Shown here: positions 18,540 through 22,114 of the stretch, in pieces | Layout: each line of letters starts with the position of its first letter | Numbering within the stretch: position 1 is the first letter of the stretch | Source: Bdellovibrionales bacterium | GTDB taxonomy: Bacteria; Bdellovibrionota; FAC87; UBA2466; JACKAF01 | Length of the DNA: 36,823 nucleotides | Reading direction: 5' to 3' | NCBI GenBank assembly: GCA_020435295.1 | Contig: JAGQZV010000014.1 | Span: 1-36,823 of the forward strand | Notes under the pieces: model-generated | Seen by the model: only the letters and a program-made list of their open reading frames with translations | What the model was told of the DNA's origin: nothing | The model's database searches: none | Made by a program: the position numbers and the translations under genes

Positions 18540-18997
18540 CGCCAGTGCAGGCGGCGCTCACGGCGGATTTTCGCTTCCTCGTAGAGCGTCTTCTCTTCCG
18601 CTGTTTTTGGTTCGTAGGGAGGAACTTGCTTGGGGCGACCCTTTTCGTCTACCGCCACGAAGGTCAAATAGGCGTGGGTGGCGCGCTTGCGCTCTCCGGT
18701 TTGGCTCTTTTCCGCGTCCACAAGAACCTCCACTTCCATGGAAGTCCTTCCTACAAAGCTGACTTGGGCTGTGACTTGGACGGTCCAACCCGTCTTGATG
18801 GGATTGATAAAGTTTAAATAGTCGATGGACGCGGTGACGACGTTAGAGCGGGCGTAGCGTTGAGCGGCGATAGCAGCTGCGATATCGACCCATCCCATAA
18901 CGACGCCACCGAAAATGGTACCCAATGCATTCGTATGTGAAGGCAACACGATTTCGGTCATGATCGTGGGGCTGCGATCTGGTTTTGGGGTAGCCAT
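18536..18997 (-). CDS. Acyl-CoA thioesterase, hotdog fold (YciA/BACH type)
   Basis: The 153-residue hotdog enzyme hydrolyses acyl-CoA thioesters. The signature '[20 protein letters not shown]' followed by DIAAAIAA is the conserved helix and active-site Asp region of YciA/BACH thioesterases. '[17 protein letters not shown]' supports it. ATG 18995-18997 overlaps the mltG stop by one base, so it is the last gene of a ruvX-mltG-thioesterase operon. The pairing with cell-wall and Holliday-junction genes looks like simple operon packing rather than a shared pathway. It is convergent, by 4 nt, with the B12-domain operon, which also handles acyl-CoA. Confidence 0.92.
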
Positions 18998-20037
18998 CAG
19001 GGTCCTTGGGTAGCGTTGCCGCGCCGACCACTTCGGCGCTTTTGTAGCACCTCCACGTGGTGGGCGTGCTCCTTATAGGTTTTCGTAAAGGTGTGCGTGC
19101 CGTTATTCTTGGACACGAAATACAGGTACTCGGTATTCGCCGGTCGCAAAACCGCCGCAATGGACTCTTCTCCAGGGTTCGAGATGGGACCGGGTGGCAG
19201 ACCTTTTATCCGGTAGGTATTGTAGGGTGTGTAGGTTTCCAGGTGCTTGCGAGTCAGGTTACCATCAAAGTTCTCGATGCCGTAAATAGTGGTCGGATCG
19301 CTTTGCAGCCGCATGCCTTTATTTAATCGGTTCTTGAATACCGATGCAATAAGCGGCCGTTCCTCTGGCGCACCGGTTTCCTTTTCTACGATGGAGGCGA
19401 GAGTGACCAGGCGCTCGACGGTAAATCCTTTCAGTGCGGCTTCATCTTTGTACTTGTCAAACTTCTGCCTAAAGCGCTTAACCATCGCTGTTAGGATGTA
19501 TTCTTCTGAGTCAATCTTTGAAAAAGAGTACGTGTCGGGGAAAAGGAAGCCCTCAATGGTTGGCGTCGTAAAGCCACTTTTTCTGGCGAACTCTTTGCTC
19601 AGACCAATTTTTATAAATTTGTTTGGGTCGCCCAGATTTTGGGCCGCAAGAATTTCAGCTATCTGGTGGACATTCCATCCTTCGGGAATGGTTACTTGAT
19701 GAAGCACTGGATCGGAAAAGTACAAGATCCTCAACGCACCGAGCGGATTCATATTTTCTTGAAAGCGAAATTCGCCGGCACGCACGCGCGAACTGCCTTG
19801 GGTGAGGGTCAGCAGAACTTTGAAGAACGTGGGGCCGCTCACAACATGTTTCTTGTATAGTGTGTTGACCACACCGGAGAGAGGCGTTCCCCGCTGAATG
19901 ATCACATCAACGGGTGTGCCATCGGAGTTCCCTTGTAAGACGAAGTAGCCCAAGGTGAGGGCGCAAACAAAGAGTACAGCTGTTAGGAAAGCGACAATCT
20001 TTCCAAAAAGGCCTAACTTAGAGTTTCTCAGTTCCAC
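18997..20037 (-). CDS. mltG: Endolytic murein transglycosylase
   Basis: The 346-residue inner-membrane protein cleaves nascent peptidoglycan glycan strands and helps set their length. It has an N-terminal transmembrane helix (KIVAFLTAVLFVCALTLGYFVL), a LysM-like region, and the YceG/MltG catalytic domain. The domain is marked by 'VTLASIVEKET' (catalytic Glu), 'RLQSDPTTIYG' and 'YNTYRIKGLPPGPISNPG'. The start is GTG 20035-20037 because no ATG is in frame before the membrane helix; it overlaps ruvX by 10 nt. The C-terminus is short and basic. Confidence 0.95.
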   Translation of the reverse strand: MELRNSKLGLFGKIVAFLTAVLFVCALTLGYFVLQGNSDGTPVDVIIQRGTPLSGVVNTLYKKHVVSGPTFFKVLLTLTQGSSRVRAGEFRFQENMNPLGALRILYFSDPVLHQVTIPEGWNVHQIAEILAAQNLGDPNKFIKIGLSKEFARKSGFTTPTIEGFLFPDTYSFSKIDSEEYILTAMVKRFRQKFDKYKDEAALKGFTVERLVTLASIVEKETGAPEERPLIASVFKNRLNKGMRLQSDPTTIYGIENFDGNLTRKHLETYTPYNTYRIKGLPPGPISNPGEESIAAVLRPANTEYLYFVSKNNGTHTFTKTYKEHAHHVEVLQKRRSGRRGNATQGP

Positions 20038-20462
20038 GGTGCGTGATCGAATTGTAAACTATCCAGGTAGCTTTGCAAAAGAATCGTTGCAGCAACTTTG
20101 TCCACAACCTGTTTGCGTTTTTTCCTGGAGACTTCACCTTCGATCAGGTAGCGCTCAGCTTGAGCACTCGTGAGGCGCTCATCCCATTCGATGATGGGAA
20201 GCGATTTGCTCTTTTGCAGCAGTGCGACGCGTTTTCGTATTTCCAAGCCCATTTCACTGGGTTCTCCGCTGGAGTCCAGCGGCATGCCGACCACCAAGGT
20301 ACCCACGTCGTTTTCGTCAATGAGTGCGACGACGTTTTCCACCCAGCGGCGTGGATCGGAGGCCTCAAACTGCAGTAGTGGGAAGGAAAAGGTCCTACTC
20401 TCATCTGAAATGGCGGCGCCGGTTCGTTTAGTACCGACGTCCAAAGCGAGTATGCGTTCCAT
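20028..20462 (-). CDS. ruvX: Putative pre-16S rRNA nuclease / RuvX (YqgF) family
   Basis: The 144-residue RNase H-fold protein has the YqgF signature 'ILALDVGTKRTGAAISD' (first catalytic Asp), 'VGTLVVGMPLDSSG' and 'EWDERLTSAQAE', with a C-terminal 'VDKVAATILLQSYLD'. The family processes the 5' end of 16S rRNA and has also been described as a Holliday-junction resolvase. ATG 20460-20462. It is the first gene of the operon with mltG, a pairing common in proteobacteria and Gram-positives, and overlaps mltG by 10 nt. Confidence 0.95.
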   Translation of the reverse strand: MERILALDVGTKRTGAAISDESRTFSFPLLQFEASDPRRWVENVVALIDENDVGTLVVGMPLDSSGEPSEMGLEIRKRVALLQKSKSLPIIEWDERLTSAQAERYLIEGEVSRKKRKQVVDKVAATILLQSYLDSLQFDHAPWN

Positions 20463-20524: not shown

Positions 20525-22033
20525 CTATAATTTCGGTAGATTGGCCGGCATGTGCGGGTACGGCTTCTCCGCGCCTAGCTCTAGCGAGCTCATGGGGTTG
20601 GTGCATTGCAAGTAGGCTTGGGTTCCCATCGGGCGCCCGTTTCCGCTTCTCTTAAGGCCTACAAAGGGAAGCCGGTAGACGGGGCTCACCGTGGGGCAAT
20701 TCCAGTGAAAAAGGCCGACCTCTACTTCACCCAACAATCGGGCGTACGTGTCTCGCGACGTTGAATAGAGTGACGCCACTAATCCGTCCGGACTCTGGTT
20801 TAGCACCTCGGCGACTTCGTCGAGATCTTGGATCTTGTAAACTGCGATGTTAGGTCCAAAAATCATGTCTCTTTGGTAAATGCTCTTGGGGTTTAGGTCC
20901 TTCACGAGGTGGATCGACGGAGATACGTAGTACCCACGCCGCTCCTTTTCGAGGTGTTTGCCCCGCATGACTTCTTCGCAGCCTTCGCGCACCGCGATGC
21001 CTTGGTAACGCAGGTAACTTTCCATTTTGGCTTCGCTCACCAAAGGCCCCATAAAAACGTGACGGTCGGGAAGCAATCCATAGTCCACGCGAACCTTCTT
21101 TGAAAGGCTGTGGAAATCACTTAGAAATCGATCGAAAAGGTCAGCATGGATTAGGAGCCGACGTGTAGACGTATAACGTTGCCCGGTTGTCAGGTACGCG
21201 GAGTATAAACTCTCCTTCAACGCTTTTTCGTAACACGCGTCTTTCCAAACAACGATTCCATTTTTTCCGCCGCTATTGATGACAAGCGTTTTCCAGTAGT
21301 CGTTTAACAACTCCTTACGGATACGCAGAGCTTTTTCGTGAGAACCTGTAAAAAAAACTCCCTGCACATCTTTGTGGCCAATTAGGCGGCGAGATAGCTC
21401 AGCATTTCCGTGTATGACGTTAAATACTCCACTCGGGATACCCGCGTCGTTGGCAATTTCTGCGAGCATTTGGCCGACTGCGGGATTGAATTTGGATGAT
21501 TTCAATACCACAGAGTTGCCGTTCAAGAGCGCTGGTACAAAGCGGCTGTGAGAGATCAATAGTGGCAAGGTAGACGGGGAGATCACGACCATAGGCCCCT
21601 TGGGATAGTAGCGAAAAACGCTCTCCATCTCACTTGTATTCTCCAGCTTGCGTTCCACTTCCGTTTCGCTAGATTGGCTGAGGTAAAACTCAAGCAGCTG
21701 GACGGACTCGTTGACCTCCGATTCGGCTTCCCAAAGGGGGCTGCCCCCTTCAAAAGCCAGCATTTCCGCGAGGCTGCTTTTCCTTTCCTGCAGCAAGCCA
21801 CGATAGCGTGAGAGAGCCGCGTAGCGATCGGATGCCGGCATCCGCTTCCAGGTCTTAAACCCTGCTCGGGCGGCGTCGATTACATCCCCGACGTGCTCGT
21901 AGCTGAAAGGAAAACTCAGTACCGGCTCATCAAGATCACCGGGGTTCTTACTTAGGACCTCTCCGTTGGGGTCATTGACTTTGACGAAGTGGCCTTTGAT
22001 GTAGTCGCCGCGGTAAGATCGTGTCGCTTGCAT
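20525..22033 (-). CDS. AstD-like aldehyde dehydrogenase homologue lacking catalytic residues
   Basis: The 502-residue product has the full-length aldehyde dehydrogenase fold and is closest in motif layout to succinylglutamate-semialdehyde dehydrogenase (AstD). However, the nucleophile Cys in 'GQRCT' is Tyr287 (TTGQRYTSTRRLL; codon TAT at 21173-21175). The general-base Glu of 'LEMGG/LELGG' is Asn253 (VINSGGKNG). The oxyanion Asn of 'PYNFP' is Thr155 (SPSTLPL). The cofactor-binding KPSE is KSSK (178-181). The FTGS loop (228-231) is retained. The frame is intact, so it is probably a non-catalytic homologue under selection, not a decayed pseudogene. ATG 22031-22033 has AGGAGAAAC upstream. It is last in an operon with an M20 deacylase and astA. 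Confidence 0.88.
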   Translation of the reverse strand: MQATRSYRGDYIKGHFVKVNDPNGEVLSKNPGDLDEPVLSFPFSYEHVGDVIDAARAGFKTWKRMPASDRYAALSRYRGLLQERKSSLAEMLAFEGGSPLWEAESEVNESVQLLEFYLSQSSETEVERKLENTSEMESVFRYYPKGPMVVISPSTLPLLISHSRFVPALLNGNSVVLKSSKFNPAVGQMLAEIANDAGIPSGVFNVIHGNAELSRRLIGHKDVQGVFFTGSHEKALRIRKELLNDYWKTLVINSGGKNGIVVWKDACYEKALKESLYSAYLTTGQRYTSTRRLLIHADLFDRFLSDFHSLSKKVRVDYGLLPDRHVFMGPLVSEAKMESYLRYQGIAVREGCEEVMRGKHLEKERRGYYVSPSIHLVKDLNPKSIYQRDMIFGPNIAVYKIQDLDEVAEVLNQSPDGLVASLYSTSRDTYARLLGEVEVGLFHWNCPTVSPVYRLPFVGLKRSGNGRPMGTQAYLQCTNPMSSLELGAEKPYPHMPANLPKL

Positions 22034-22114
22034 GCCGTTTCTCCTGATTCCCTTAGATCTTAATCGCTCCCGGAGGAGGGTCAAGCGCCGGGGCGTATGT
22101 CACAAAAGGCGTGC

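Follow-up and report, generated by a model that had tools for sequence, protein, structure and literature searches.

Pseudoenzymes have often been studied as single old events, in which the features that were kept and those that were lost are hard to separate. In the aldehyde dehydrogenase (ALDH) superfamily, a pseudoenzyme is already known in human ALDH16A1 (PMC10650815; PMC8160307). The family that scores best with the protein described here is AstD, N-succinylglutamate 5-semialdehyde dehydrogenase (NF006992, TIGR03240; PDB 5u0l, 4kna and 3ju8). For AstA, a report on Acinetobacter describes that growth on arginine was abolished when the predicted catalytic His229 was mutated together with residue L125 (PMC12375414). 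A literature search found no bacterial pseudoenzyme of the AstD branch and no repeated inactivation at one locus, nor any paper joining Bdellovibrio with succinylglutamate or with a pseudoenzyme; the repeated formation of a pseudo-ALDH at a single bacterial locus appears to be new.

The DNA considered here (the window, meaning the whole stretch of 36,823 nucleotides) belongs to a 3.44 Mb genome of Bdellovibrionota, G000, whose relatives bear names such as Bdellovibrionales, Bacteriovoracaceae and Halobacteriovorax. A sequence-only reading had claimed for it a catalytically dead AstD homologue, kept intact in an arginine-succinyl operon with astA. An error of assembly or binning is ruled out, the flanking gene order (rnc-era-der; RuvX-MltG) being the same in relatives. 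The features of the locus are collected in Table 1.

The ALDH-like protein of the window

The frame runs on the minus strand from the ATG at 22033 through 502 residues, with AGGAG 8 nt in front of it; the full length and the ribosome binding site claimed earlier are both borne out. Our scan gave about as many promoter-like matches as chance would (4, with 3.8 expected) and fewer terminator-like ones (3, with 7.9 expected). Alignment with the AstD structure 5u0l confirms all four altered functional positions of the sequence-only reading: GPYNFP has become SPSTLP (N169 to T155), FKPSEL has become LKSSKF (KPSE to KSSK), LALEMGG has become LVINSGG (base E268 to N253) and GQRCTC has become GQRYTS (nucleophile C302 to Y287). 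That reading missed a fifth change, E399 to M390 (in YQRDMIFGP), at a residue which in this family is a nicotinamide-ribose ligand.

The protein is clearly of the ALDH superfamily (PF00171, 329 bits, cut-off 23), and lacks the Cys302, Glu268 and Asn169 of its catalytic members. AstD models score it at 260-278 bits, about half of their curated cut-offs, and by neither model does it count as an AstD (TIGR03240, 259 bits against 579; NF006992, 278 bits against 514). An AF2 model built from 31 homologues has a pLDDT of 91 and a pTM of 0.90 and superposes on PDB structures of ALDHs, including the AstD structures 5u0l and 4kna, with a TM of about 0.9. The combination of lost catalytic residues, a predicted fold that is kept and purifying selection (see below) is that of a pseudoenzyme. 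The extra C-terminal ALDH-like domain of ALDH16 is absent, the protein having a single domain.

Table 1. Features of the locus in the window
Feature	Position	Strand	Remarks
AstD-like ALDH-fold candidate pseudoenzyme, 502 aa	20525..22033	-	T155 (N169), K178-S-S-K181 (KPSE), N253 (E268), Y287 (C302), M390 (E399)
Ribosome binding site AGGAG	22034..22060	-	8 nt 5' of the ALDH ATG
AstA-like acyltransferase, 344 aa	22115..23149	-	PF04958, 330 bits; under the AstA equivalog cut-off; Gly at predicted catalytic His229
M20 ArgE/DapE-like metallo-deacylase, 440 aa	23149..24471	-	metal and catalytic motifs intact (HTHLD, GSADVK, GEER, GEP, NVHRP)
Presumed RuvX/YqgF-like gene	20028..20462	-	conserved neighbour downstream of the ALDH
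Presumed MltG-like gene	18997..20037	-	most persistent neighbour of the ALDH, also in family f3

The operon and the arginine pathway

The two genes downstream of the ALDH are those which we take to be RuvX/YqgF-like and MltG-like. In outgroup families the gene order is class-III aminotransferase, M20 deacylase, AstA-like gene, ALDH, (RuvX-like gene), MltG-like gene, and the aminotransferase keeps its conserved Lys wherever the gene is present. An orthologue of it is missing from all 15 genomes of the window's order and from all four of f3. The f3 genomes are small and have also lost M20 and AstA, with the dead ALDH gene abutting MltG or nearly so (L121, L122). A glycosyltransferase-9 (heptosyltransferase-like) gene lies directly 3' of the ALDH at L105 (5998-6972), L107 (8782-9762), L111 and L116; the window has none.

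That the gene order includes an AstA-like gene next to the ALDH stands, but the identity of that gene as astA is doubtful. Its product scores 207 bits with TIGR03244, for which the cut-off is 391, and in the alignment with 1yle it has VG opposite the VHP motif, and so lacks His229. Across more than 60 loci, AstA-like proteins have Gly, rarely Ser or another residue, at this predicted catalytic position. The AstA-like proteins of the phylum carry a conserved motif of their own, SELxPPLxxxGxSxLWEAxGRRF; an AstA with VHP adjoining an aminotransferase was seen only at L148 and L150. The rest of the pathway is likewise missing from G000 (95.8% complete), in which there is no match to PF04996 (AstB) or PF04952 (AstE) and no orthologue of the AstC-like aminotransferase of the operon; AstB is missing from 57 of 59 relatives and AstE from 54 of 59. 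An arginine-succinyl operon, as proposed by the sequence-only reading, is therefore doubtful. Because AstB and AstE are absent and the AstA-like protein lacks the VHP His, the operon would rather serve an acyl-protected amino acid route of another kind than the known arginine pathway. Annotations of 'AstD' or 'AstA' in relatives of Bdellovibrio need not mean arginine catabolism. Two members of the order have AstB elsewhere, at locus L125 (G011, C159) and at locus L126 (G013, C85, beside another ALDH match), probably as part of a separately acquired AST operon.

Loss of catalytic residues in the order and the phylum

In each of the 14 other genomes of the order an ALDH orthologue stands at the same locus, its substrate pocket eroded (identity 47-55%; two of the 14 run into contig ends). 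N169 is lost in every orthologue that spans the position; the nucleophile and the base vary. At the position of Cys302 there is Tyr in the window and in genus g3, Ser in g4 and Arg in g6 and g7, while g2 and g5 have Cys; at the position of E268 there is E, Q, N, V or D. Genera g2 and g5 keep both Cys and Glu, though N169 and KPSE are gone, and from these residues relatives of their type may retain chemistry. Elsewhere in the phylum, most families have homologues that are normal N/E/C enzymes. The exceptions are f3 (E to G, C to S), G320 (C to Q), G041 (N to T, E to Y, C to A), L098 (N to R, E to N, C to F), G355/G346 (N to S/D, E to Q) and L096 (N to D). The frames are full-length, with no internal stops, in f3 and in the members of the order with complete contigs. 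Loss of the gene also occurs in Bdellovibrionota, since L209 (G020, C63) and L210 (G036, C2) have M20 and AstA-like genes with no ALDH at the locus; G020 also has the aminotransferase.

In trees computed without the trait columns, f3 is the sister of the window's order (support 99/96), and parsimony puts the changes at the Cys position at six or more. One common loss for the order and f3 is rejected (p-AU 2.5e-5), for which reason the two are tallied separately; one loss within the order is compatible with the data (p-AU 0.07). Judged from the residues and the trees, the phylum has lost the Cys at least five times independently, namely in the order, f3, G320, G041 and L098, where L098, G320 and G041 lie on long branches and their exact placement is unsure.

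The changes are concentrated in one part of the protein. Across 69 active homologues, 72 positions are conserved at 95% or more. They comprise 12 catalytic and substrate-pocket positions, of which the window protein has changed 10, 16 NAD-site positions, of which it has changed 4, and 44 that lie outside both the pocket and the cofactor site, of which it has changed 5; in each class, active homologues on average depart at about 1% of the positions. Every altered line has 7-12 of the 12 pocket positions changed. The excess in the pocket of the window protein is, on these alignments, far beyond chance, with P values that are descriptive because the list of positions was fixed after the changes had been seen. 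The altered copies share lost positions (113, 154-160, 253, 287 and 450-457), which by homology to ALDH2 numbering we take to be the substrate pocket and catalytic residues; of these, 154-160 and 450-457 differ between genera within the order. Retained in all 24 altered copies are 28 of the 72 positions, including K178 (Lys192), G230 and parts of a GYYVxPSI segment. Most copies in the phylum, active or dead, retain the longer segment QGIAxREGxExxMRGKxLE...GYYVxPSI, in which the AstD structures aligned here differ from them.

The codon model rejects omega=1 for all pairs of dead copies tested (G004-G008, G004-G005, G005-G008, G023-G030, G015-G030, G000-G007, G000-G011 and G000-G004; LRT 196-524), a test on which we rely alone, since dS is saturated and point estimates of omega are unusable. 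The sequence-only reading had called for dN/dS, and purifying selection is what every pair returns. The ALDH nevertheless evolves faster relative to AstA in the order, with a distance ratio of 1.9 against 0.8 among active outgroups (about 2.4 times), and relative to MltG as well (1.04 against 0.70); between genera of the order AstA is 66-69% identical and the ALDH about 50%. Constraint thus appears relaxed in part, yet clearly present. The claim of a catalytically dead copy that is kept intact holds up in this sense: dead as judged by its residues, it is under purifying selection and does not look like the decay of one copy. Normal Cys and Glu in relatives had been named as a sign of simple decay if joined with relaxed selection. 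Relatives with Cys and Glu were found (g2, g5), but one-copy decay is contradicted by the rejection of omega=1 and by the window copy's terminal branch (0.57-0.6), which is like those of its relatives (0.48-0.62).

The proposed retained function and its alternatives

We favor the reading, with a probability of roughly 0.6, that the ALDH of the window is a recurrent bacterial pseudoenzyme, folded, with its NAD-site residues mostly kept, that has retained a non-catalytic role. The ancestor in Bdellovibrionota would have had an operon of class-III aminotransferase, M20 deacylase, AstA-like acyltransferase and AstD-like ALDH. As the absence of the gene shows, the common line of the order and f3 lost the aminotransferase, which probably took away the aldehyde substrate. 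The pocket and the catalytic residues then eroded, separately in different sub-lineages, while selection kept the fold, most of the NAD site and the phylum-specific segment. The retained job may be that of a structural or regulatory ALDH-fold subunit which binds a nucleotide, a metabolite or a protein, and the M20 deacylase is one possible partner in the order. Such a job may predate the order, because other families of the phylum came to the same outcome on their own. A wider version is tentative and in our view somewhat short of even odds: a non-catalytic second function of the AstD-like ALDH would predate the radiation of the phylum, and breaks in the pathway would have shed catalysis, giving at least five parallel pseudoenzymes, with M20 behaving alike in several lines. 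Altered ALDHs occur in 22 of 31 incomplete modules and in 1 of 31 complete ones, a comparison that holds only about one to two informative independent pairs, and we make no claim that module loss drives inactivation because the independent events are too few. There are lines that have lost the aminotransferase or AstA with the ALDH normal, and G041 has a dead ALDH although its module is complete, with aminotransferase, M20 and AstA-like genes.

The M20 copies examined in the order keep their metal motifs except in G007, which has lost AstA too. Full-length M20 proteins lacking metal ligands or the catalytic Glu occur at L205 (G041), L206 (G320), L105 (G007), L134 (G032), L135 (G045) and L136 (G051), and look as if the whole operon tends towards pseudoenzymes.

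The sequence-only reading had offered a structural or regulatory partner of AstA as the retained role, and astA does adjoin the ALDH in most genomes of the phylum and is unusually conserved in the order. As a general role this fails: G007 keeps M20 and a Ser-type ALDH with AstA absent from the genome, the f3 genomes keep their altered ALDH without any AstA, and at the loci of G320, G346, L096 and L098 the altered ALDH also stands without astA. With G007 and f3, AstA is excluded as the general reason for retention. Moreover, AstA being more constrained while the ALDH is less so is the opposite of tight co-evolution, and we consider a specific partner or regulator of the acyltransferase improbable. 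A pocket rebuilt to take a new substrate or to carry out a non-oxidative reaction, the different chemistry also suggested earlier, would agree with the strong purifying selection, with the Cys and Glu kept in g2 and g5 and with the three positions at which the order has a fixed residue of its own (N162H, F423Y and N443H, the only ones, each residue occurring in some active homologues too). A shared new reaction would, however, be expected to fix a shared pocket, and the nucleophile, the base and the pocket positions instead vary by genus. We therefore regard new chemistry as unlikely for the window protein, whose altered pocket residues are not conserved among altered homologues, and as conceivable only for relatives of the kind that keep Cys and Glu.

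Two further alternatives are less likely still. A useless gene slowly awaiting loss could explain the faster rate relative to AstA than in active relatives, and the loss of E399 in the window copy on top of the residues lost in its relatives; against full-length frames at saturated synonymous divergence in both the order and f3, and against the selection tests and branch lengths given above, it is very unlikely. Weak or partial ALDH activity, with the lost groups replaced by another residue or subunit, would make sense of the 12 NAD-site positions of 16 that are kept, but C302, E268, N169 and E399 are all lost together in the window copy, and every catalytic ALDH structure has the Cys according to a review of the family (PMC8160307), which makes this reading, too, highly improbable. 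We return to the preferred reading of a retained pseudoenzyme. A single gene of one phylum then occurs at one locus in active, half-altered and dead forms, on several independent occasions, which amounts to a natural experiment: what active and dead copies both conserve points to the hidden function, and the parallel losses define the substrate pocket.

The candidate pseudoenzyme of the window resembles AstD as its best-scoring family, in fold, in length and in having an AstA-like neighbour, and differs from it in lacking the Cys, Glu, Asn, KPSE and E399 as well as the AstB, AstC-like and AstE genes. It also resembles the active AstD-like ALDHs of other Bdellovibrionota (for example G018, G055 and G032), which are orthologous by locus (M20/AstA-like/ALDH/MltG), are 37-43% identical and share the MRGK segment; their N/E/C, KPSE or KPSD and E399 are intact, and their operon usually begins with the class-III aminotransferase. 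The astNOP genes of Acinetobacter are likewise a partial ast operon, the second of their genome, with an AstA homologue of altered substrate, but that genome keeps a complete astCADBE operon, and the accessible part of the report describes no dead ALDH (PMC12375414). Human ALDH16A1 is similar in having the fold without the catalytic residues, and is retained and proposed to bind proteins (PMC10650815; PMC8160307). ALDH16 has, however, a large extra C-terminal domain (PMC8160307), whereas the protein described here is a single 502-residue ALDH of the AstD branch, with losses that recur at one bacterial locus.
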